From assembly GCA_963971405.1 (NCBI GenBank), contig OZ020484.1:10602001-10666000 (forward strand): a DNA stretch of 64,000 nucleotides, in the 5' to 3' direction. Source of the DNA: Psococerastis gibbosa (lineage: Eukaryota > Arthropoda > Insecta > Psocodea > Psocidae). The notes below the pieces were generated by a model. The model had not been told where the DNA came from, ran no database searches, and worked only from the letters and a program-made list of their open reading frames with translations. Below are positions 1-63,771 of the stretch, one piece after another. How positions within the stretch are numbered: the stretch's first letter is position 1; each line of letters opens with the position of its first letter. The translations under genes were made by a program, and so were the position numbers.

Positions 1-384
1 TCGTTGCTCTAATTAATTATTGGCAGCTCAGCAGAGTGAAAATGGGTAGGTACTGTTTCCGAAACGGAACGCATTATATTCAGGGCATTAAACTCAGCCT
101 GCTATAACAGCAACCTTTTAATCACTTGATTTCCTTAACCCCGTCCCCACCAATAGTTATTTCAGGGAACGTCCCTTTTCAGTCTAATGAAAATGAAAAT
201 TATATGGGGAGACCGCCAAATCCTTCTTCTCATCATTAAAATGGAAAAGACAGGACTATAGGTGTTTGCCTGATTAATTTTGCGCTATATCTGTTTTACG
301 AAATGTCTTAAACGGTGACACCAGTAAAATAAACATTTTCAATATCACCTGAGCAGCACTGAGGCATTCTATTACATTTTAAAC
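1..384. other. unannotated AT-rich DNA
   Basis: No coding pattern, terminal inverted repeat or match to another part of the window was seen here. Confidence 0.5.
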
Positions 385-1256
385 AACCGGTCCGAGTTAA
401 CTCGAACATGCTTTCCAATTTATCAAAATTAGTAGATTGAGAAAATGAGTAATTTCATGGTAAATAATTTTCCTATGGTTAAATTTCCGATATCTCGGGG
501 GGGGGGGGGGGGGTTGTCCACCTGACGTCACTGGAGGTGAGGTAAATTCTAGATAGGTCAGACCAACAAATTACCACACAGCAATACTGGTAGGGCACGC
601 AATGCATTTCAGCGTGAATTTTCTATCATTTTTTCAAAAAAACATGATTTTACAAAACCAAATACTTTTCTGGAAAAGCAACCTGTCCGCTTTCGTTACT
701 CAATTTAACACCTAAAACATGCCTGAAGGTAGAAATCACCAATAGAAAGGTTTCGCAGAAAAATTATTTTTTAGTCATTTTTCATTAAAATTTAGCTATT
801 TTTATTTTTTTACCCCCAGAAGCAACCTATCAAGGGGCACGCGACCCCATGCATTTCGTTAAAATTAATAACGACTACAATATATGTGAATTTAAAAGAA
901 ATCGTTGCAGCCGTTTGTGAGAAATAAATTTTTTAGACGTTTTTTTGGAGTTTTTTGAGAATAACACCCCCCCCCCCAAATTAAGTTAGCCCCAAAAAAA
1001 AAAATTGTTCCGAGGTATGATTTTTGTGAACCTACATGCCGAATTTCATCAAGATCGACCGAGTAGTTTGCCCGGAAATCGACGCACAGACAGACAGACA
1101 GAACGACAGACAGAACGACACACAGACAGACATTTCGTAAAAACCACTTTTTTTGGTTTCTGGGACCTCAGAACGGGTAAATCCGTTGAAATCTCGGAAT
1201 CGAAAATTTCGACCGTCACAAAGCATTCCTTTTACTACGTATAAATTGGAAAGCAA
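385..1256 (-). mobile_element. Helentron-like non-autonomous element (HINE), copy 1
   Basis: One of seven copies of the commonest repeat here. Read on the minus strand it starts with TTGCTTTCCAATTTAT, carries a (GTCT/GTCY)n tract, and ends just past the inverted copy ATAAATTGGAAAGC (seen near 410) and a short hairpin (CGAGT/ACTCG type) next to AACCGG. Sub-terminal inverted repeats, a central GTCY microsatellite, a 3' hairpin and no obvious target duplication are the known layout of Helentron-associated elements such as DINE-1. A run of 17 G lies at 497-513. It encodes no protein; the open frames here arise from the GACA repeat. Family assignment is inference from structure. Confidence 0.72.
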
Positions 1257-5495: not shown

Positions 5496-6290
5496 GAACC
5501 GGTTCGAGTTTACTCGAACATGCTTTCCAATTTATCAATTAGTAGATGGGGATAATGAGTAATTTAATGTAAATAATTTTCCAATGGTTAAATTTCGGAT
5601 ATCTGACGTCACTGGAGGTGAGGTAAATTCTAGATAGGTCAGACCAACACATTACCACACAGCAATAATGGCATTTAAGGGTGAATTTTCTATCAATTTT
5701 TCAAAAACATTTTTTTGCAAAAAAACTAAATAGTTTTTTGGAAAAGCGACCTGTCCGGTTTCGTTACTCAATTTAACACCTAAAAGATGCCTGAAGGTAG
5801 AAATCATTGATAGAAAGGTTTTGCAGAAAAATTATTTTTTATTCATTTTTCATTAAAATTTAGCTATTTTTAGTTTTTTACCCCCAGAAGCAAACTATCC
5901 GGGGGCAAGCGACCCCCCGCATTTTGTTTATATTAATAACGACTAGAATAAATGTGAATTTGAAAGAAATCGTTGGAGCCATTTTTGAGAAATATTTTTT
6001 TATACGTCTTTTTTGGAGTTTTTTGAGAATAAAACCCATCCAATTTAAGTTAGTCCAAAATTAAAAAGAATGATCTCTCGAGGTATGATTTTTCTGAACC
6101 TACATGCCAAATTTAATCAAAATCGACCGAGTAGTTTTCCCGGAAATCGATGAACAGACAGACATTTTGTTTAAAAAAAAACACTTTTTTGGGTTCCTGG
6201 GACCTCAAAACGTCCGTTGAAATCTCGGAATCGAAAATTTGGACCATCACAAAGCTTTTCTTATATTACTACGTACAAATTGGAAAGTAA
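5496..6290 (-). mobile_element. Helentron-like element, copy 2 (no G tract)
   Basis: Same layout as copy 1: GAACCGG plus hairpin at 5496-5520, sub-terminal inverted repeat next to it, and the opposite end AAATTGGAAAGTAA at 6290. The (GACA)n block is reduced to two units at 6154-6163. It lacks the G homopolymer and the 11-base GTTGTCCACCT block found in the other copies; GATATCT joins directly to GACGTCA at about 5600-5612. Confidence 0.72.
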
Positions 6291-10893: not shown

Positions 10894-12239
10894 ATATCTT
10901 GATATTATATACAGGTATATCCAGTAGGTATATACGTCGTGCATAACTGAACCTTCCCTACAATTTATTCCAAATTTTTGGTATGAAAAGGATATCCGAG
11001 TCGGAAGACGCAGCTTTAAAACCAATGAATTATTTCTTAATACCCTTCTAAAATCTCCCGGTTACATCCACCTATTTTAGAGTTTAAAACGTTATTCTAG
11101 AGGAAGGAAATGACTTTTTTTCTGTATAGAAAATCATTTTTATCTCGTTTATCTGTCACGTAAGGAACATGGAAAAAAATTTATTCACTCATTTCCTTTG
11201 ACAAAAATAAAAAGAACACTGAAATATATTTTGATCGGCAAATTTGTAGAAATCAATGTTATTGAAGCTGTCAGTAACCTATAAGCTTATAAACGCATAA
11301 ACCGAGCTATTTACACATGTTTAATAGAACAATCGGATTGAAATCAAAAGCTGCCCCTAAAATGTGTAAATGATGAGTTTTTCGGAAGAATTAGGACAGA
11401 AATCATTTTGACGAACAGCCATCATCAGACTAGACTTGAATACTAATTGACACTCAGGTAAGATAATTCAATTAAACACAAATGTTACCTATATTTCAAT
11501 GAAACCACAAACAAATTGCTCAAGGACTCACAAATCAAGACTTTTAAACTAGGTACCTAACTTTACGCGTAAGAGAAAACTCATTTCTCAGACAAATCTC
11601 GAGTTCTCATGAGAATATCAAAGAACACGTAAAAAGTACCTAACGAAGTTATGGAGTTATAATGGTAGGTAACTTACGTCCTGTTCTGAAACTTGACGAC
11701 AAACTTTACAATTTATATTCAATGGTTTTCAATTTAGAGTTATAAAAGATAAAATGTTTGTAGGAGTATAAGATGCACCAATTACGGATTTGATTGAAGA
11801 AAATGGGGATTGGAGTAGTTAGTGAAAACTTTTGTGAAGATGTTGGATTCTCAATAGCAGATGATCTGTCAGTTACAAGCGGCGACATTTCCGTAAGAAA
11901 TATTGGAAACTATTGGTAAAAAGGGGAAGCATTGGATTTTGTATTTTCATCGTTGCCCTAGCTTATAATCGGAAGATCTACAAGACATTAAATATTGCCT
12001 ATATAACATCTCCCGTACTTCAGAATTGAAATCGGTTGTCATTGAAATTGTGTACTAATACAGTACAAAGACGAAGACTATTTATAATTACTATAATTCC
12101 ACTGGAAATGGAAATTGTGACATTTTGTATTAATTCATGGTTCTCACATAATACATACTACTATACATAGGCTATAAATCTAATTAATGTCCATATTTTT
12201 GTTGGGATTTTAAATAGACCTATCAGTAACAATAACAAG
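10894..12239. other. AT-rich DNA, nothing recognised
   Basis: No repeat shared with the rest of the window and no convincing reading frame. The 60-codon frame near 11706-11888 has no recognisable features. Confidence 0.4.
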
Positions 12240-13856: not shown

Positions 13857-14089
13857 TTACCGACTAGAATGTATTGTAGTAACACACATATTAAGAATAT
13901 TTTGTCGGTGGTTGTATCTTTTGTCAGGACATGTAGAGTAGTGGTACAGTTGAAGTTGGAGTTGAAAAATGTTCTCTCACTCCAATTAATCGATTAACTA
14001 AACGAAACTTGAAAATAATAGGTTCGCGTCTCTAAAAGCAGCTACTTTTGCTCGTGTGTGACGTCATTTTTTTGTTGGTCCCTCAGAAA

Positions 14090-14368
14090 TTCCAATATGG
14101 CATGCTGTCAAGGGATGTCGCTGTGGCCACTTTCAGGATGCAAACCGGCCACGACTATCTCCAAACCCATCTGCACAGAATAGGACTCGTCGACTCACCT
14201 ACCTGCCCCCTCTGTAATGAGGCTGAGGGCACGGCTGACCACCTGCCAAACTGCAGAGCTATGGACACAAACAGCAACAACAATGAAGACTCCTTGCGAC
14301 AACGGTCAAGGCTCTACTGGGCGACACGGCGCCAAATGGCAGAATTGCCACGGACGGGCGTTGGATGA
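14090..14368 (+). pseudogene. LINE C-terminal fragment (RNase H end and zinc knuckle)
   Basis: The translation from about 14090 reads LSRDVAVATFRMQTGHDYL, then HLHRIGLVDSPTCPLCNEAE, then DHLPNC, and ends after YWATRRQM shortly before the stop at 14366-14368. The order 'TGHD-x-L-x-x-HLHRIG ... CxxC(N) ... H-x(4-5)-C ... YW-AR' is the C-terminus of RNase H-bearing non-LTR retrotransposons common in arthropods, where the CCHC group is thought to bind nucleic acid. The RT, RNase H catalytic core and endonuclease are not present upstream. The segment is clearly GC-richer than its surroundings. It differs from the LINEs at 13422 and 20325. Confidence 0.82.
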
Positions 14369-15499: not shown

Positions 15500-15860
15500 A
15501 AACAAGCGGGGCTTCGGACCGCTTCGCGGCCCCCCCCCCTTTTCGCTTATAAGGTCAAATTCACTCATCGTTTTATTGCTATTGTATAAAGTTCAAAACA
15601 AAGAACGTTAGTTTTGTTTATAACGTTTCGAACGCACTTTTCGGTTCTTTGGAATTTATTCCGAGGACAACTCATACGAAAAGGGCTGTTTTTAGGGTTC
15701 TTCCGGCAATTATTGGAATTTTTTTTCGCCGTAAAAACCATCGTTGAACTTCAATGAACATTTAAAAAAAAAGAATTGTCCAAATTGGTCCAAGCGTTGT
15801 TGAGTTATGCGCTTACCAACACATTTTGCAATTCATTTTTATATAATAGATTTAAAAACT
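15500..15860 (+). repeat. probable retroelement 3'-type repeat
   Basis: Contains a block GAATTGTCCAAATTGGTCCA (15774-15793) and then GTTGAGTTATGCGCTTAC and TTTTTATATAATAGAT. I recognise this arrangement as a widespread arthropod repeat end, usually attached to RTE-type LINEs or Helitrons. No second copy is present here to test it. Confidence 0.35.
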
Positions 15861-17865: not shown

Positions 17866-17967
17866 GCATTTCATTAATTATGATGGTTGTCTGTAAGCCA
17901 GTTGTAAAGTCGGTTTGCAGACGATAGTTTTACGTGACAACGCCTAAATTACTAAATCTTTCTTAAA

Positions 17968-19054
17968 GAACCGGTCCGAGTTTACTCGAACATGCTTTCC
18001 AATTTATCAAAATTAGCAGATAGAGAAAATGAATAATTTCATGGTAAATAATTTTCCTATGGTTAAATTTCCGTGTCCGTGTATTGTACTTGTGCATACA
18101 CACGTGCCCCCCGGACGCAACTTTGTTCTGACTAAAAGAGCTTCTTTACCGCTCCATGCCAGTTACATCACAATACTGGCAGGCGTGGCACCAGATGGCG
18201 GTAACGCCAAAAGTGGGCGTTGGATAAAGTTTAAGTAAAGAACCGGTCCGAAATAATTTTTCTATTGCTAAATTTCTGATATCTCGGGGGGGGGGGGGGG
18301 GGGGTTCCCATCTGACGTCACTGGAAGTGAGGTAATTTCTAGATAGGTCACACCAACACGTCACACAGCAATAATGGCAGGGCACGCAATGCATTTAAGC
18401 GTGAATTTTCTATCATTTTTTCAAAAAACAAAATTTTTGCTCAAAACCAAATAGTTTTTTAGAAGAGCACCCTGTCCGGTTTCGTTACTCAATTTAACAC
18501 CTAAAACATGCCTGAAGGTAGAAATAATCGATAGAAAGGTTTCGCAGAAAAATTATTTTTTAATCATTTTTCATGAAAATTTAGTTATTTTTATTATTTT
18601 ACTCCCAGAAGCAAACTATCAAGGGGCAAGCGACCCCCTGCATTTTGTTAACATTAATAACGACTACAAGATATGTGAATTTAAAAGAAATCGTTGGAGC
18701 CGTTTTTGAGAAATAATTTTTTTAGACTTTTTTTTTTAGTTTTTTGAGAATAAAATCCCCCCAAATTGAGTTAGCCCAAAATAAAAAAAAAATCTCTAGG
18801 TATGATTTTTGTGAACCTACATGCAAAATTTCTTCAAAATCGGGCGAGTAGTTTGCCCGGAAATCGATGAACAGACAGGCGGCAGACATACAGACATACA
18901 GACAGACAGAGCGACAGACAGACATTTCGTAAAAACCACTTTTTTGGGTTCCTGGGACCTCAAAACGTGTAAATCCGTTGAAATCTCGAACATTTTCGAA
19001 AAATTTCGAACATCACAAAGCTTTCCTTATACTTACATATAAATCGGAAAGCAA
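17968..19054 (-). mobile_element. Helentron-like element, copy 3, with two 3' ends
   Basis: The 5' end is at 19054 and the (GTCT)n tract is seen as GACAGACA near 18870-18925. A first terminal motif (GAACCGGTCCGA) lies at 18239-18250. Beyond it is about 165 bp of sequence absent from other copies (18074-18238), then a second complete 3' end with sub-terminal repeat and hairpin (17968-18073). The insertion joins TTAAA and TAATATATGG; the uninterrupted site is at 46808/46809. No base is duplicated, as expected for rolling-circle insertion between A and T or T and T. A run of 19 G lies at 18286-18304. Confidence 0.75.
18074..18238. other. segment captured between two Helentron-like 3' ends
   Basis: GC-rich relative to the element and absent from all other copies. 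It contains ACACGTGCCCCCCGG and GGCGTGGCACCAGATGGCGG. No protein recognised. It could be host DNA taken up by read-through of the first terminator, or a remnant of an earlier insertion. Confidence 0.5.
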
Positions 19055-19639
19055 TAATATATGGCTAGAAAGAGAAAGAAATGTGGAAAAGCCCTTAAGT
19101 AGTTTTAATTTTTTAAATAGATAATAACGCGACCGAAAGAAGCCTATTTTTGTTGATAATCGTGCGCACTCCCTGACGTTTCACACCCCCAAAGCCAAAC
19201 CCCTTGCTTGATCACCACAAATATAGCATGGCTTGAAAGAGGAAGAATAGACCAAGCCATGGGTATAATTTAAATTATAATAGGCCTTCCACATCAGCCC
19301 AAAAATTGCTTTAAACCCGCTCAAATGGGATTGCTGGAAATGTGTCATTTTTTTTTTAGAAATTTTGTGTTCCACTCGTGGTTAAGGGGTGAAAGGGTGA
19401 ATTTGAAAATATATATTTATACTCGTTTGAAACCTTAATTTATACTGCTTCTAATGAGACATTAAAAATTAATTTCGGTTGAAAATTGTAGGCTGTGGAA
19501 TTTTATGTACTCTATGCATGTAAATTCAAAAGTATCCTTTGAACCTGTATTCCGACGAAACAGTGATGGCTTACCAATTCACTTGAGCCTAAACGAAGAG
19601 ACGTATTGTAAAACTGAATATATGTCTGAAAAGAGTAAG

Positions 19640-19910
19640 AAAGGTGAAAAACAAATAAAGTAGTTTGAAGTTGTCAAATTGATATTAACACCCCCAAAAA
19701 TGCGGCCGAAAAAGGCCTATTTTAGATTAAAATCAGAAAATTATGGCCAAATTTGGGCGCGCCTCCTCATGTTTCCTCCCCCCAAAGTCGAACCCCTTGC
19801 CCTATCACAACAAATATAGCATGGCCTGAAAGAGGAAGAATAGACGAAGACATGGGTATAATTTAAATTGAGATAGGCCTTCTACATCTGCCCAAAAATG
19901 AGCGTCATCC
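19640..19910 (+). repeat. interspersed repeat H, second copy
   Basis: Repeats the middle of 19055-19440: AAATATAGCATGGCYTGAAAG, ATGGGTATAATTTAAATT and ATAGGCCTTC are common to both and to 46550-46680 (inverted). Confidence 0.65.
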
Positions 19911-32189: not shown

Positions 32190-32756
32190 GCATATTCCGC
32201 TTATGCAGGTGTAGCAACTACTACTACCCTCTCTTTAGTCTATGGAGCGAGCCAGACTTCTGAACCAGATAAAGGGCACGTTAAGTTACCATATCTGGGT
32301 AGGATCAGTTTGGAGTTGGCCTCTTGGATTGGAGATAGGGTCGATAAGAATGTGTCATTTTATTCTGTGGACTCGTTGGGTAAGCAACTGATTAATTGTA
32401 AACCTAAATTGGAGAAAGGGAGGAAATCAGGGGTTTATCAACTAGACTGTAATGACTGTGGTAGCTTATATATTGGACAAACTGGGAGAGGGTTTAAAGA
32501 AAGAATAGCGGAGCATAGACGGGGGGTAGGAAAACCCGACACTCAGTCCGCCTTTGCCCAACATATAAACACCCACAACCATGCCTGTGATATAGATAAT
32601 TTTAAGATCTTACATGTAGCCAACAAGGGGAAACTTCTTGATAATTTAGAAACCATTGAGATTAGGGAAGCTATGGTTAAAAACAAATCGTTACTTAATG
32701 ACATAACCTTTTTAAGTAGTTCCCCCTTGTTGGCGCTTCCATTGGTTAATGTTTAA
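32190..32756 (+). pseudogene. Penelope-like element C-terminal fragment with GIY-YIG endonuclease
   Basis: Open from just after a TGA (32187-32189) to TAA (32754-32756), about 188 codons without internal stops. The first part contains HVKLPYLGRISLELASWI, matching the linker after the reverse transcriptase in Penelope-like elements, where 'LPY' begins the connector. Next comes VYQLDCNDCGSLYIGQTGRG, with the two short motifs (VYQL for GIY, LYIG for YIG) of a GIY-YIG nuclease, then the KERIAEHRR helix carrying the catalytic-site arginine, and NLETIEIREA with the glutamate expected for metal binding. The C...C(N/D)C pair before YIG is usual for this group. The RT is missing, so this is 5'-truncated. 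A hammerhead-like motif follows at 32865. Confidence 0.88.
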
Positions 32757-38244: not shown

Positions 38245-38744
38245 ATAGCAAAATTTCAATGTGAAACCTATACTTCTCCATGTGTTTATACCGATCTTCT
38301 GAACATAGGCCATCAGCAGCATTACAGGAATGCTGAACAAAAGGCAACAGCAAACAGACCCGCGACCTTGGAGCCATATCTTAATTTCTGGTACATTTTG
38401 ATTTGCATCCAGAAAGTGCTGCACGCACTTTTGTAATTAATCGTTAGTTATCGAGGGTATGTACGAGTAGAGGTAAACGCTCTTTCGGGCGTGTAATTGT
38501 AGACTACGAACTTCGTAGGATATAAATATGAAACAGATTGTACCTAATATAAAATACAATAAAATATCGGGTATTAGAATATTGTAGTAGGGTTAATTAT
38601 CATTAATTGCTTCCCTATTTACTAGTATAAGTTGGCATACAGTAAAGGAAAACTTTGTCATGATTGCGATTTTCAAAATCGAGATTTCAAAGTAATTACT
38701 CGCGTTTGAACAATCAATCTATGGGAGCATGGGAGCCCTAATTG
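38245..38744. other. unrecognised DNA
   Basis: A 66-77 codon pair of overlapping frames near 38240-38430 has no recognised domain. Confidence 0.35.

Positions 38745-38781: not shown

Positions 38782-38873
<92 letters not shown>
38745..38873 (+). repeat. LINE 3' tail grown into (ATT)n microsatellite
   Basis: GTCTAATTATTGTATTTG then TTGGAAATAAAGAATTATT leads into about 30 ATT units (38782-38873). GGAAATAAAG(ATT)n is a common terminal pattern of CR1/Jockey-like LINEs. The tract explains the polyisoleucine frame on the other strand. Confidence 0.75.
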
Positions 38874-40041: not shown

Positions 40042-40891
40042 TTGCTTTCCAATTTATACGTAGTATAAGGAAAGCTTTGTGATGGTCGAAATTTTCGATT
40101 CCGAGATTTCAACGGATTTACACGTTTTGAGGTCCCAGGAACCCAAAAAAGTGGTTTTTACAAAATGTCTGTCTGTCGGTCGGTCTGTCGGTTCGTCGAT
40201 TTCCGGGCAAACTACTCGGTGGATTTGAGTGAAATTTGGCATGTAGGTTCACAAAAATCATACCTCGGGACCATTTGTTTTTGGGGGGCTAACTCAATTT
40301 GGGGGGTTTTATTTTCAAAAAACTCCAAAAAAACGTCTAAAAAAATTATTTCTCAAAAACGGCTCCAACGATTTCTTTTAAATTCTCGTAAATTGTAGTC
40401 GTTATTAATGTTGACAAAATGCGGGGGGTCGCTTGCCCCTTGATAGTTTGCTTCTGGGGGTAAAAAAATAAAAATAACTAAATTTTAATGAAAAAATGAC
40501 TAAAAAATGCGAAACCTTTCTATCGATGATTTCTACCTTCAAGCATGTTTTAGGTGTTAAATTGATTAACGAAACCGGATAGGTTGCTTTCCCAAAAAAA
40601 TATTTGGTTTTGCCCAAAAAATTATTTTTTGAAAAAAATGATAGAAAATTCGCGCTCAAATGCATTGCATGCCCTGCCAGTATTGCTGTGTGGTAATTAA
40701 TGTGTTTGTTTGACCTATCGAGAATTTACCTCACTTCCAGTGACGTCAGGTGGACAACCGCCCCCCCCCCCGCCCCCCGAGATATCGGAAATTTAACCAT
40801 AGGAAAAATATTTGCCATAAAATTACTAATTTTCTCTATCTAATAATTTTGATAAATTGGAAAGCATGTTCGAGTGAACTCGGACCGGTTC
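40042..40891 (+). mobile_element. Helentron-like element, copy 4
   Basis: Begins TTGCTTTCCAATTTATACG and has the (GTCT/GTCG)n block at about 40167-40194. It ends with the sub-terminal repeat ATAAATTGGAAAGC (40854-40867), hairpin CGAGT/ACTCG and GGACCGGTTC. The C tract at 40762-40779 (interrupted by one G) is the complement of the G tract in other copies. Confidence 0.75.
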
Positions 40892-41146
40892 TTTTGTTAT
40901 TACGTTAATCCGTAATTTTCAATTTGGATATTTCAAAGAAGTGAGGATAACACGTTTCCAGGTACCAGGACATAAAAAAGTAGATTTTAGGAAATGTCGG
41001 CCAATGGGATGAATCTTGGACAAAAATAGGGAGAAATACCTACGATATACGATACGATACCTCGTACTTATAAAAATGCATTGCATCTCATATACCATTT
41101 TGTACCTAATGTACCTAAGGATTGGCTAGTAGGGTTAATCGCATGG
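40892..41146. other. unrecognised DNA
   Basis: Nothing recognised. Confidence 0.35.
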
Positions 41147-46032: not shown

Positions 46033-46549
46033 ATGCCATCAACGGGGCCTACTATGCCGTTTTATATAATACATAAAAGTACATGAGTCATGAGTCAAAA
46101 GATAAACCGGGTATTTAAGCTGTTCAGGTTTAAATGATATGAATGCAAATATCATAAACAATATATTCAAAGAATAGAGGTATTAGTATAATTTACATTT
46201 TGATATCCTGTCATGAATAAACCATAGTGCTTGTCATGCTTCTCACTGGAGCTGCTTACAACCAAGTAGGACTGGTAGGGGCGGAGGCAGGGGGGGGGGG
46301 GCTTATGCTTTATGTGACACATTTTCCCATCTTCACAGTCATTGGCGATTATTTAAACTACGGCTCATTCCATTTCTAAGCGTGCGTAGTTTTTAAGTTT
46401 AAAATGTCTCAAAACTGTTTTTTTGACACGACAACGTCTAATAAATCGATGGGCGCTGGCTGGAAATCTAGGTGCGTGTTCGAAAAATTGTTACTACGAT
46501 AGGTGATGTTCATCCGTAACGCGGGTATGTGACGCGGGTTTAAAGCAAC

Positions 46550-46880
46550 TTTTTGAGCAGATGTAGAAGGCCTATCTCAATTTTAATTACACCCATGTCT
46601 TCATCTATTTTTTCCTCTTTCAGGCCATGCTATATTCGTGGTGATCAAGCAAAGGGGTTGGCTTTGGGGGTGTGAAAAGTCAGGGGGTGCGTACGATTTT
46701 AAACAAAATAGGCCTCTTTCGGCTGCGTTATTATCTATTTAAAAAATTCAAACTACTTAAGGGCTTTTCCACATTTCTTTCTCTTTTTCTCTTTCCAGCC
46801 ATATATTATTTAAGGAAGATTTAGTAATTTAGGCGTAACACTATCGTCCGTAAACCGACTTTACAACCGAATTACAGACA
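46550..46880 (-). repeat. interspersed repeat H, uninterrupted copy
   Basis: Inverse of 17880-17967 plus 19055-19440, here contiguous. It therefore preserves the empty site (between 46808 and 46809) of the Helentron-like insertion at 17968-19054. Confidence 0.72.
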
Positions 46881-47395
46881 ACCAATTTTTATAATTACGC
46901 CATAACCTATGGTTTCCGCCAACAGTTCCAGGACGTCCGATAGGCGATACCTCGTATACTGTCAAGCATGGTGTAAATCGCTCCTTCATTTACCAACTGT
47001 TTTAACTGAAAAAATCTTTTTTTTTTTTAAATTATTTCATCAAAAAATTTATTTTTTTCTCCTGTTTTTACGTCCAATCGTCGTATCTGCAAGCCTGTAA
47101 AAAAATGAAAATTTCTTGGCTGAAGTGTAGGAGATAATGAATTAAAACCACCGGGAAAACCTTTGGAACGCTCTCTTGAAAAGTTAGCATTTTGCAGTTA
47201 TAGGCAAATCAAGGAGCGATATATTCAATATATTGTAGTAAATATTTTTAAGACATGCAATCACACAATCCAGACAGAGGTAATATGTCGGAATCTATCA
47301 TTTAACTTCCTTTGCGGTTATAGGACATTAGATTCTTAGGTTGTTTTTTATACCATCACAAACACTTAGAATGAGGTGCAACAGACAGCAGCAGC
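46881..47395. other. unrecognised DNA
   Basis: Nothing recognised. Confidence 0.4.
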
Positions 47396-48953: not shown

Positions 48954-49835
48954 TTGCTTACCAATTTATACGTAGTGTAAGAAAAGCTTTGTGATGGTCG
49001 AAATTTTCGATACCGAGATTTCAACGGATTTACACGTTTTGAGGTCCCAGGAACCGAAAAAAGTGTTTTTTTTTACGAAATGTCTGTCTGTCGCTGTCTG
49101 TATGTATGTCTGTCTGTATGTATGTCTGTCTGTCTGTTCATCGATTTCCGGGCAAACTACTCGGTGGATTTGGGTGAAATTTGGCATTTAGGTTCACAAA
49201 AATTATACCTCGAGACAGTTTTTTTTGTTTTGGGCTAGATCAATTTGGGGGGGGGGGGTTTATTCTCAAAAAATAAAAAATAAACACCTAAAAAAAATGA
49301 TTTCTCAAAAACGGCTCCAACGATTTCTTTTAAATTTAAATACTGTATATTCTAGTCGTTATTAATGTTGATAAAATGCGGGGGTTCGCTTACCTCTTGA
49401 TAGTTTGCTTCTGGGGGTAAAAAAATAAAAATAACTTAGTTTTAATGAAAAATGAATAAAAAATCATTTTTTCTGCGAACCCTTTCTATCGATGATTTCT
49501 ACCTTCAAGCATGTCTTAGGTGTTAAATTGAGTAACGAAACCGGACAGTTTGCTTTCCCAAAAAACTATTTGGTTTTGTGCAAAAAAAATGTTTTTGAAA
49601 AAATGAAAGCAAATTCACGCTCAAATGCAAATGCCCTGTCATTATTGCTCTGTGGTAATGTGTTGGTCTGCCCTATCTAGAATTTACGTCAGGTGGACGA
49701 CCCCCCCCCCCCCCCCCCCCCCCCCGTGATATCCGAAATTTAACCATAGGAAAATTATTTACCATAAAATTAATCATTTTCACTCTCTACGAATTGATAA
49801 ATTGGAAAGCATGTTCGAGTAAACTCGGACCGGTT
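48954..49835 (+). mobile_element. Helentron-like element, copy 5
   Basis: Begins TTGCTTACCAATTTATACG and has the longest (GTCT/GTAT)n block (49081-49138). It ends with ATAAATTGGAAAGC, hairpin CGAGT/ACTCG and GGACCGGTTC. A run of 25 C lies at 49701-49725. Confidence 0.75.
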
Positions 49836-50061
49836 CTTCTGTCATGCCGCGGAGCAAGGCCATATCCTGGAACACTGAGAAGGGGGGTTTCAGTCGACAG
49901 TACAATGTTCGTATGAAATGTAGTAAAATATACGTTAAGTATAAGTGACCTATCCACATGTTACACCCTGTAAATAGGGGACACGGGGGGATTTTTTTTA
50001 TAAATTGGCGTGAAATAGTGGGGGTTTCCGCATTTTGACTCCAGTAACTTTAGGTTTAACA

Positions 50062-53198: not shown

Positions 53199-54269
53199 TA
53201 CTTATAATAATCTCCATTATATTTTTCAATGTCAAATACGAGTATAACACGCACGCTCTGCCCTTCTCCCAAACTTTTGACCAAGCACTATATAGAATGA
53301 GCTTTTTTTTACCAAATAAGCTACATAAAATAATCCTATACAGGTTCCTTTTTTAAACTTGGGCCACAAAAAAAATACTAGATCCTCCCATAACACATGA
53401 GAGTGCCTACACAGGTATTAATAATACCGAATTAAGGGCTAAAACATCTGAAATCATCTTTTCACAACTTAAAAATTAACGCTAGCTCACCTACGAGTAG
53501 TAGGTATTTGGGACTTCAAAACGCGTGTACCGGTACCGGTACCGTAATTCGGACATTTTTTCGATTACTAAGCTGCGTTTATGTATGGAAGAGTGAGGAT
53601 CAGGGCTCTCTGTGGGGAAGCTGCCAAAGCCCTAACCCCTATAGGAAAACTAATTATCGAACAGTAATAAGTACAGTAAATTGGCGTGTTTTGCTCTTTG
53701 TCCGTGAAGCTGAACCTTCTAAAGTGAAGGGAAACTATAAAATTGTAATTTTACCGTTGAATCAAAATGTGTGGATTAATGCGTAACATAACATTGAAGC
53801 GGTTTTGAGAATAAAGCAAATGAATTCCTGGGCGGATGAGCAAGCTGTGGTCGCAGGACTGATTAAAAGCTTAAAGTCAGCCACTCGGGACGACGCTAAC
53901 TTTCCTTAACACTATGGACTACCCCTGTCTAACTAATGTATTTTAATTACTGCCATGTTCCATCGGTACCTACGTTTGCTGCTGAAGATATTCCTCACTC
54001 CCTAGAGCATTGAATCTTCTAGTACCCACTCTACTTTAGAATCAACATAACATTTAAATATTATAGTCCGTCAGGAGCGACAATTGACAACAAATTGAAT
54101 CTAAGGGCAGTGCGATAAGCAAGAATAGTAATAACCAAAGATTAGTGGCTAAGCGTGGAGTATATAACATCTTAAATCTTGGCTTAAAGCCAATTGTGGA
54201 AAAGCAATGTTTAAACGAATATTACCGGATAGACAAAACAAAAATTAAGACTTGGATGCGGAACTGTCA
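53199..54269. other. unrecognised DNA
   Basis: Contains GTACCGGTACCGGTACCG at 53528. No gene supported. Confidence 0.4.
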
Positions 54270-54471
54270 TTCATATTAAAATGTCGTTGGTCAAACGTCA
54301 AAAGTTTATTGATGACAACACAGTTTCATAAGCATACCAATTGCAAATCATGTAACTGTCATTCAAATTAAGATGTCATTGCTCAATATAACTGCATAGG
54401 CTTTCACGGCCGGAGTCGAATGAGGAACCAGTAGAATCCGGGCTGATGGGCCGTGGTCGAAGTGAAAGAGA

Positions 54472-55128: not shown

Positions 55129-56093
55129 GTTCCCATCAGCCCGGATTCTACTGGTTCCTCATGTCATTGCTCAAATCCAACAACGTTTATAGATGACAAT
55201 AAACATACCAAATTGCAAATAATGTAACTGTCACTCAAATTAAGATGTATAGATGTTCACATCCAACAACGTTTATAGATGACAATACATTTTCATAAAC
55301 ATACCAATTGCAAGTCACGTAACTGTCACTTAAATTAAGATGTCGTTGCTCAAACCCAACAACGTTTATAGATGACAATACATTTTCACAAACATACCAA
55401 ATTGAAAATCATGTAAAGTGTCACTCAAATTAAGATTTCGTTGTTCAAATCCAACAACGTTTATAGATGAAAATACATTTTCATAAACATACCAAATTGA
55501 AAATCATGTAAAGTGTCACTCAAATTAAGATTTCGTTGTTCAAATCCAACAACGTTTATAGAAGAAAATACATTTTCATAAACATACCAAATTGAAAATC
55601 ATGTAAAGTGTCACTCAAATTAAGATTTCGTTGTTCAAATCCAACAACGTTTATAGATGAAAATACATTTTCATAAACATACCAAATTGAAAATCATGTA
55701 AAGTGTCACTCAAATTAAGATTTCGTTGTTCAAATCCAACAACGTTTATAGATGAAAATACATTTTCATAAACATACCAAATTGAAAATCATGTAAAGTG
55801 GCACTCAAATTAAGATGTCGTTGTTCAAATCCAACAACGTTTATAGATGAAAATACATTTTCACAAACATACCAAATTGAAAATCATGTAAAGTGTCACT
55901 CAAATTAAGATTTCGTTGTTCAAATCCAACAACGTTTATAGATGAAAATACATTTTCATAAACATACCAAATTGAAAATCATGTAAAGTGGCACTCAAAT
56001 TAAGATGTCGTTGTTCAAATCCAACAACGTTTATAGATGAAAATACATTTTCATAAACATACCAATTGCAAATCATGTTTTGCACTGGAATAG

Positions 56094-58840: not shown

Positions 58841-59944
58841 GAACCTTTAGCGGCTCTAGGGGACTTGAATAAATAATTAAGCTGTATATATTAATAACGG
58901 TGAAAAATCGTGGGTCAACTTTTGCGACAGCGCGCAATCTGGCTGACTTTATCAGATTTTTTTTATTCAATCACCTGTTACACGCGGGTGGCGGATAGTT
59001 ACACTACGAGTAAGTTAATAGCTTCACTTTTCTTCTGTATGTGATAATTATGAAGGCAATATCACCGTTGGATAATGAAGGAATGAGATTTCTTGTAGCG
59101 ATAAGTACAGGTACTGCCGGACGTGACATAAAAATGTTCGTGCGTAAGCTTGTCTATCTGTATCTATCTGTACAGGGAACAATATCTTAAACTTCATATA
59201 AAAAATATGGTAATTTGCCAGTCAGTACTTGGTCTAAACATAAAAAGGTTATTTTTAGACATAGGTAACATGGATAGACGCTGATACAGGTGGGTAGGTT
59301 ACAATTTGTGGCACGATTAATGATGTCAAACTTTAGTGTTCATAAATGGCCGTATATATTCAAATCGTAGCACACTGTGAAAACCTTTCTTTTAATTTAC
59401 TAATTATTACGTCATCCGTAGTGGCAGTAATGTGAAAATGTTAAAATAAGAGTAATACTTTACCACTACCAAATACGTCTTTCTATCAATTATGAACAAA
59501 AACATTCCCCCTGAGATTTTAAAAGGTGATCTCCTCCGATGGGAAAATTTGACAATCAGTTCTAGTAGGCTATTTTATCTGCCTATCAATGTGGACAGTT
59601 GTATTGTATAGAAGTACAATTGAACAATTGTAAGTAAAAATTTTCATTTTCTAATTTAAAAAAAAGATATCTTTTGTGTCGCAAACATTCGGCTGGGTGT
59701 TTGATCTAACTTTGCTAACCAATGTTTAACGTATCTAACGGGGATCAGATGGAACAAACAAGCAAATATCGTAAATATGTTAGAGGAAGGATTTCCATTA
59801 AAAAAAACGAACTGCCGACAATAGACAGTATTTCATCATTCACTTTTAACCGTCGTCATAAACAAATTACTAGCAGCTATGAACTATATAAAAGGGTAAG
59901 ATTACACAGTGCATATACTGTATGTTGATCAAAATGAGTTAAAC
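58841..59944. other. unrecognised AT-rich DNA
   Basis: A 68-codon frame (59722-59928) has no recognised domain. Nothing else. Confidence 0.4.
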
Positions 59945-60337
59945 AAGAGGCAAGCGACCCCCTGCATTTTATTAACAGTAACAACGACTGCAATATATAT
60001 GAATTTAAAAGTTGGAGCCGTTTTTGAGAAAAAATTGTTTTAGACATTTTTTTTGAGATTTTTGAAAATATAACCCCTCCAAATTAAGCTAGCCCAAAAT
60101 AAAAAGAAGTGGCCTGGAGGTATGATTTTTGTAAACCTACGTGCCAAATTTCATCAAAATCGAGCGAGTAGTTTGCCCGGAAATCGATGAACAGACAGAG
60201 CGACAGACAGACATTTCGTAAAAACCACTTTTTTTGGTTCCTGAGACCTCAAAACGTGTAAATCCGTTGAAATCTCGGAATCGAAAATTTCGACCATCAC
60301 AAAGCTTTCCTTATACTACGTATAAATTGGAAAGCAA
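59945..60337 (-). mobile_element. Helentron-like element, copy 6, truncated
   Basis: Keeps the 5' half (end TTGCTTTCCAATTTATACG read from 60337, GTCT block at about 60190-60213) and stops near AGGCAAGCGACCCCC. The hairpin end and G tract are missing. Confidence 0.72.
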
Positions 60338-62771: not shown

Positions 62772-62961
62772 GACATGGACGGATACAGCAGCTAACCTCC
62801 CCCCTAAAATCAAATCAAGTTAATGTGTCACGCTCTAATTTAATCGATACTACATATGTTTTTCCTATTTTGAACCACAACTACCCCCCCCCCAATGGGC
62901 TGGATCCATCCCTGAGTCAGGAGGGGTAGCTGCCCCCCAAAATGGGCTGGATCCGTCCCTG
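62772..62961. mobile_element. possible hAT-type miniature element
   Basis: CAGGACATGGACGGATAC on the left and GGCTGGATCCGTCCCTG on the right, with an internal second copy of the right end (62900-62918). No target duplication found. Confidence 0.4.
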
Positions 62962-62969
62962 ATTGGAGG

Positions 62970-63771
62970 CAACATGCTTTCCAATTTATCAATTAGTAGA
63001 TATAGAAAATGAGTAATTTCGTGGTAAATAATTTTCCAATGGTTAAATAGGGGGGGGGGGGGGGTTGTCCACCTGCCGTCACTGGAGGTGAGGTGAATTC
63101 TCGATGGGTCAGACCAACACATTACCACACAGTAATAATGTCAGGGTACGCAATGCATTTGAGCGTGATTTTTCTATCATTTTTTCAAAAAACAAATTTT
63201 CGCAAAAGTGCACAAACCGAAATAGTTTTTTGGGAAAGCAACCTGTCCGGTTTCGTTACTCAATTTAACACCTAAAACATGCCTGAAGGTAGAAATCATC
63301 ACTAGAAAGGTTCCACAGAAAACTGATTTTTTTTATTAATTTTTCATTAAAATTTAGTTATTTTTATTTTTTTACCCCCAGAAAAAAAAACTATCAAGGG
63401 ACAATTAACATTAATAACGACTACAATATAGTGTATGTCAATTTAAAAAAAAAATCATTTGATGGAGCCGTTTTTGAGAAATAATTTTTTAGACGTTTTT
63501 TTTTAGTTTTTTGAAAAGAAACCCCCCCAAATTGAGTTAGCCCAAAATAAAAAATTTTTCCCGAGGTATGATTTTTATGAACCCATATGCCAAATTTCAT
63601 CCAAATCCGCTGAGAAGTTTTCCTGGAAATCGATGAACAGACGCAAAAACCACCTTTTTGGGTTCCTGGGACCTCAAAACGTGTAAATCCGTTGAAATCC
63701 CGGAACCAAAAATTTCGACCACCACAAAGCTTTCCTTATACTAGGCAGGCTACGTATAAATTGGAAAGCAA
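62970..63771 (-). mobile_element. Helentron-like element, copy 7
   Basis: 5' end at 63771 (TTGCTTTCCAATTTATACG on the minus strand). The GTCT block is almost lost (about 63634-63641), a 15-base G run lies at 63050-63064 and the sub-terminal repeat is at 62974-62990. The terminal hairpin and AACCGG are missing beyond AACATG. Confidence 0.72.

Follow-up and report, generated by a model that had tools for sequence, protein, structure and literature searches.

Several elements of the Helentron (DINE-1-like) class, and one canonical Helitron, provide the background against which the repeat studied here can be read. In the account of DINE-1 given in PMC2374699, the 5′ and 3′ ends of the element are called conventional, and both readings of the TT at its insertion sites are already set out, as bases carried by the element or as a TT duplication of the target. 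For the mite HINEs, PMC4067079 detected no change of the target on insertion and leaves the placing of the Ts open. The work on Helraiser in PMC4778049 assigns a function to the 3′ hairpin, which acts as a terminator and whose loss raises read-through into flanking DNA; the same source describes one natural bat copy in which a palindrome-less end was bypassed. In the open-access literature, we found no paper that joins Helentrons, read-through, and transduction, and we claim no priority; a wider search of the same literature returned, among the matches listed, only PMC4067079 as a paper that treats Helentrons. Here, we describe the commonest repeat of a 64-kb stretch of Psococerastis gibbosa DNA (hereafter the window), together with one copy of it that is composite and whose empty site is preserved nearby (Table 1).

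Anatomy and class of the window's commonest repeat

BLAST within the 64-kb window recovers seven copies of the repeat, labeled A to G, in agreement with the preliminary description made from the sequence alone; the computations took copy C from 40039 (three Ts further out) and copy G to 60340 (three bases further out). The DNA that replaces the 3′ end of copy F (62885-62970) contains two GGATCC-containing units and is perhaps the end of another transposon. A related but diverged HINE is represented by its 5′ end at 38607-38702 (75% over 68 bp at 38641-38702 by BLAST), which has by eye its own subTIR-like start and partial inverted repeat and breaks off ahead of the (ATT)n array at 38782-38873. 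Just past the 3′ end of copy C, positions 40950-40998 match the HINE 5′ block at 82% over 50 bp and are perhaps a remnant of another HINE.

Table 1. Positions of the repeat copies, of the parts of copy A, and of repeat H in the window
Feature	Position	Strand	Basis
HINE-like copy A (composite), 1087 bp, both ends	17968..19054	sense on -	sequence, BLAST, alignment
Copy A, terminal TT at 5′ end: element-borne or 2-bp TT duplication	19053..19054	-	
Copy A, 5′ subTIR GCTTTCCGATTTAT	19039..19052	-	subTIR match count
Copy A, partial inverted repeat of 5′ subTIR (GGAAAGC on sense strand)	19020..19026	-	sequence, fold
Copy A, degenerate CTGT/GTCY microsatellite	18871..18924	-	sequence reading
Copy A, internal 3′ terminus CGGACCGGTTC, lacking subTIR and hairpin	18240..18250	-	BLAST, alignment, motif count
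Copy A, candidate captured segment, 166 bp, absent from other copies, no further BLAST match in window	18074..18239	-	
Copy A, intact 3′ end on the outer side, 106 bp, matches 3′ ends of B to E	17968..18073	-	
Copy A, 3′ subTIR GCTTTCCAATTTAT (written on + strand)	17994..18007	+	subTIR match count
Copy A, 3′ hairpin, 7-bp stem, 4-base loop	17974..17991	-	fold
Repeat H, part left of insertion	17884..17967	.	BLAST within window
Repeat H, part right of insertion	19055..19320	.	BLAST within window
Uninterrupted copy of repeat H (paralogous empty site)	46534..46884	-	sequence reading, BLAST
HINE-like copy B, both ends	384..1256	-	BLAST, alignment
HINE-like copy C, both ends	40042..40891	+	BLAST, alignment, subTIR matches
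HINE-like copy D, both ends	48954..49836	+	BLAST, alignment
HINE-like copy E, both ends	5496..6290	-	BLAST, alignment
HINE-like copy F, 3′ subTIR kept, other DNA in place of hairpin and terminus	about 62971..63771	-	
HINE-like copy G, 5′ half only	59944..60337	-	BLAST, subTIR matches

Read from 19054 to 17968, copy A begins with TT, the 5′ subterminal inverted repeat (subTIR), an inverted repeat 12 nt further in, and a conserved block, and continues through the CTGT/GTCY microsatellite to a second subTIR, a 7-bp-stem hairpin, and GGACCGGTTC at 17968. The 14-bp subTIR, already recognized in the preliminary description, has 14 matches at two or fewer mismatches, compared with 1.76 expected in shuffled sequences; 13 of these mark copy ends, the remaining one being a stray at 11703, and the 5′ subTIR is present in all seven copies and the 3′ subTIR in six. 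Its length is in keeping with the roughly 11-15 bp of subTIRs in HINE/DINE-1-like elements. The two are placed asymmetrically: the 5′ one begins 2 nt from its end of the element, and 26 nt, including the hairpin, separate the 3′ one from the other end. With RNA parameters, the 5′ subTIR and its inverted repeat fold at -11.8 kcal/mol in copy A; the fold is likewise stable for C, F, and G, whereas B and D give weaker ones and E none. The same 3′ hairpin occurs in 5/7 copies, its region having been lost in F and G. The reported GTCY microsatellite is present but degenerate: mixed runs of CTGT/GTCY-type units, at least three long, occur in 6/7 copies, (CTGT)3 or more in A, B, and D, and strict (GTCY)3 or more at only two places, in B and D, while strict (GTCY)4 or more is found nowhere in the window.

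The strand of the element is set by its likeness to DINE-1, and its 5′ and 3′ are conventional because no ORF lies inside it. Under the DINE-1 convention, the element runs from a 5′ end at 19054 to a 3′ end at 17968, the reverse of the orientation first proposed, and the hairpin at the right-hand end corresponds to the 5′ subTIR and its inverted repeat, the 3′ hairpin lying at the opposite end (17974-17991). Presumably, the 5′ pair was taken for a 3′ hairpin and the element was hence read backwards.

Assignment to a Helentron/HINE-like class rather than to the terminal-inverted-repeat MITEs, as originally suggested, is well supported by the asymmetric subTIRs, the 5′ partial inverted repeat, the CTGT/GTCY microsatellite, and the 3′ hairpin, and further by T-rich insertion sites and the lack of a long target duplication. 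The repeat is thus very probably a HINE, that is, a nonautonomous member of the Helentron (DINE-1-like) class. The termini also bear on the alternative of a canonical Helitron, with TC...CTRR ends and an A^T target. If the element is taken to begin at the TT that precedes the subTIR, all seven copies start TTGC or TTAC rather than TC; all five copies with a 3′ end finish GGTTC or GGTTG rather than CTRR; and the hairpin stands 6 nt from the end in copies A to E, compared with about 11 in canonical elements as given in PMC4067079. Although the insertion at repeat H can be read as A^T, and lepidopteran Hel-2 Helitrons also have (CTGT)n, a 5′ inverted repeat, and SIRs (PMC4344730), a canonical Helitron is scarcely credible here.

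As a HINE, the repeat would be moved in trans by a Rep-helicase-endonuclease, with rolling-circle transfer running from the TT, subTIR, and inverted-repeat end (19054) to the 3′ hairpin/GGTTC end (17968) and insertion at T-rich sites; the ends and sites are seen in the copies, while the mechanism is proposed from the family. Among the 35 stop-to-stop ORFs of at least 95 aa that lie wholly inside the window, none has a Rep, helicase, or DDE transposase domain (Pfam, E 0.01). The only Pfam matches in this set are a GIY-YIG domain (E 7.7e-05) in the ORF at 32190-32756 and two below-cut-off matches in 14036-14368; we guess that the GIY-YIG ORF is a remnant of a Penelope-like retroelement. No tRNA gene was detected in the window. 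Three exact patterns gave 0 matches in viral contigs and copy C gave none in a phage collection, both of which are poor places for such a repeat, so that these results say little. The class is an ordinary and well-described one, to which the copies add a further case of a known element type; for the window, the classification fixes the strand and ends of its commonest repeat, which any search for an autonomous partner needs.

Empty site and target of copy A

On the forward strand, repeat H is split by the element, reading CTTAAA, then the element at 17968-19054, then TAATATATGG, and the second copy of H is uninterrupted (TTAAATAATATATGG), the minus strand of 46300-47200 reading CTTAAATAATATATGG without a break; both observations had been made before and are borne out here. 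By BLAST within the window, the left part of H (17884-17970) aligns to 46884-46806 and the right part (19053-19320) to 46810-46534, the two matches adjoining. When the flanks of copy A (150 + 150 bp) were joined and searched with word size 7 and dust off, they matched 46884-46654 in a single HSP covering query positions 67-298 of 300, with 232 bases aligned and 85.4% identity over 240 columns. In a somewhat stricter control (word size 9, dust on), an HSP crossing the join by 40 bp on each side arose for 4 of 1904 random joins with equal spacing, and all four start at 54216-54458, in a repeat-rich stretch. The paralogous empty site of copy A is real, and copy A sits in repeat H as one block. 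Within the window, an empty site is present for this one copy of the seven: the joined flanks of B to G gave no join-crossing match elsewhere in the window, the fair tests being those of B to E, since F and G lack 3′ ends. Two neighboring repeats were also noted, namely a partial match to the right-hand part of H (72%) at 19617-19899, a third and diverged copy 0.3 kb past the split one, and a tandem array at 55199-56078 (95-bp unit, 9.3 copies, 95% matches) that adjoins the repeat-rich stretch at 54-55 kb.

The sense-strand sequence is ATTATTTAAG at the empty site and ATTATT / GCTTTCC...GGTTC / TTTAAG at the filled one, which has two Ts more. The surplus Ts are either element-borne or a TT duplication (AA on the + strand). 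The earlier statement that there is no target duplication therefore holds at copy A for anything longer than 2 bp and leaves room for a 2-bp TT duplication; its "no duplicated bases" followed from assigning two A/T bases to the element, and the absence of duplication is read from one empty site with a resolution down to 2 bp. TT directly precedes the 5′ subTIR in all seven copies. The base after the 3′ end is T in all five copies that have that end, within TT in four and TG in copy E. A TT duplication fits A to D as they stand but not E, whose TG speaks mildly against it.

These same bases carry the case for a cut-and-paste MITE with subterminal inverted repeats and a TT duplication, moved by a DDE transposase: the filled site of copy A equals the empty site plus two Ts, the 3′ flank starts TT in 4/5 copies, and DINE-1 itself was once read in this way (PMC2374699). 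On the other hand, the inverted repeats are not at the very ends, the ends are asymmetric (2 nt vs. 26 nt) with a separate hairpin between the 3′ subTIR and the end, the full set of features matches DINE-1, and the TG of copy E disagrees, although this is one copy and a single substitution could explain it. We consider such a MITE very improbable.

Composite structure of copy A

Copy A has a composite nature that the preliminary description overlooked. Alignment to the other copies reveals an excess of 205 bases close to the 3′ end (18046-18250). The body of the element, read on the sense strand, ends TTATTT and is followed directly by CGGACCGGTTC, the last 11 bases of the family at the 3′ end; intact 3′ ends have the subTIR and hairpin before this motif, whereas the inner one lacks both. 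At one or no mismatch, the motif occurs seven times in the window, compared with 0.34 expected; five occurrences are the ends of A to E, one is the internal terminus, and one is a stray at 15515. The inner terminus stands at the point where homology with the other copies breaks off, and TTTA follows it, as at the outer end. The inner and outer parts of copy A have 27 bases in common with four differences by eye (26 bases at 88.5% by BLAST), and, within the window, the 166-bp segment was found in copy A only. The unbroken H copy at 46.8 kb places the entire composite inside a single insertion; the composite either arrived as a unit or was built later by nesting and recombination.

Based on this structure, we incline, by a little over even chances, toward a natural origin of copy A by terminator bypass (read-through capture) in a Helentron-type element. 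The machinery would have run past a 3′ end from which subTIR and hairpin had been lost, taken up 166 bp of the adjoining DNA, and ended transfer at a neighboring copy that was truncated on its 5′ side but had an intact 3′ end. By analogy with Helraiser, such read-through probably explains copy A most simply. It requires a broken terminator, as is observed, whereas the alternative, in which a HINE inserted into a HINE already holding foreign DNA and later recombination between the bodies removed one 5′ end, requires the foreign DNA, the nested insertion, and the recombination all at the same place. With seven family copies in 64 kb, however, homologous partners are common, an inner terminus could lose its hairpin through chance deletion, and tandem Helitrons with 3′-truncated inner copies have been published (PMC7492417); nesting followed by recombination is a possible but rather unlikely origin.

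Divergence was considered as a sign that the body of copy A is older than its outer 3′ end, and it gives no support to this, nor thereby to read-through against nesting. Copy A differs from the majority at 55/753 positions in the body and 2/74 in the outer 3′ end, but B (42/687 vs. 2/73) and E (59/662 vs. 4/73) point in the same direction; the gap is smaller in C (33/676 vs. 3/72) and D (47/680 vs. 4/73), and copy F is reversed owing to its replaced end.

If the read-through origin is correct, a single 64-kb stretch displays the broken terminator, the captured 166 bp, the new terminator, and the empty site, and this clean natural case would extend the hairpin-as-terminator rule of Helitrons to Helentrons.

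Comparison with described Helentrons and Helitrons

DINE-1/INE-1 of Drosophila, as described in PMC2374699, likewise has a subTIR, a 5′ partial inverted repeat, and a GTCY/CTGT microsatellite in the 5′ block, followed in the same order by a 3′ subTIR and a 3′ hairpin, and shares the TT-rich target and the TT ambiguity. It differs in the sequence of the subTIR, which is GCTTTCCAATTTAT here and ATACCCGTTACTC and others in that source. No tandem central array was found within the copies (TRF score 120), unlike DINE-1, and they are without the satellite-like central array of HINE-Mo and Cg_HINE. The oyster HINEs (Cg_HINE) list their parts in the same order, including an inverted repeat and a GTCY-type microsatellite (PMC7492417). 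In PMC4067079, T-rich flanks are common to mite and oyster HINEs, and those of a predatory mite (HINE-Mo) also have a subTIR 2-4 nt from the 5′ end and a 3′ palindrome near the end; as described there, mite HINEs differ from the element here in having no 5′ inverted repeat and in their distances to the 3′ end, which are about 38-60 nt from the 3′ subTIR (26 here) and about 8-35 nt from the hairpin (6 here). Lepidopteran Hel-2 Helitrons resemble it in having (CTGT)n after the 5′ SIR, a 5′ inverted repeat, and a 3′ hairpin, and have TC/CTRR ends, which are missing here (PMC4344730).

For the origin of copy A, the nearest comparison is with the Helraiser/Helibat read-through products of PMC4778049. 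Those are canonical bat Helitrons, and some of the events were made in cells, whereas the read-through proposed for copy A is drawn from one copy of a Helentron-type element. What the two would share is a palindrome-less 3′ end that was bypassed, with the flank carried along to a new 3′ end.
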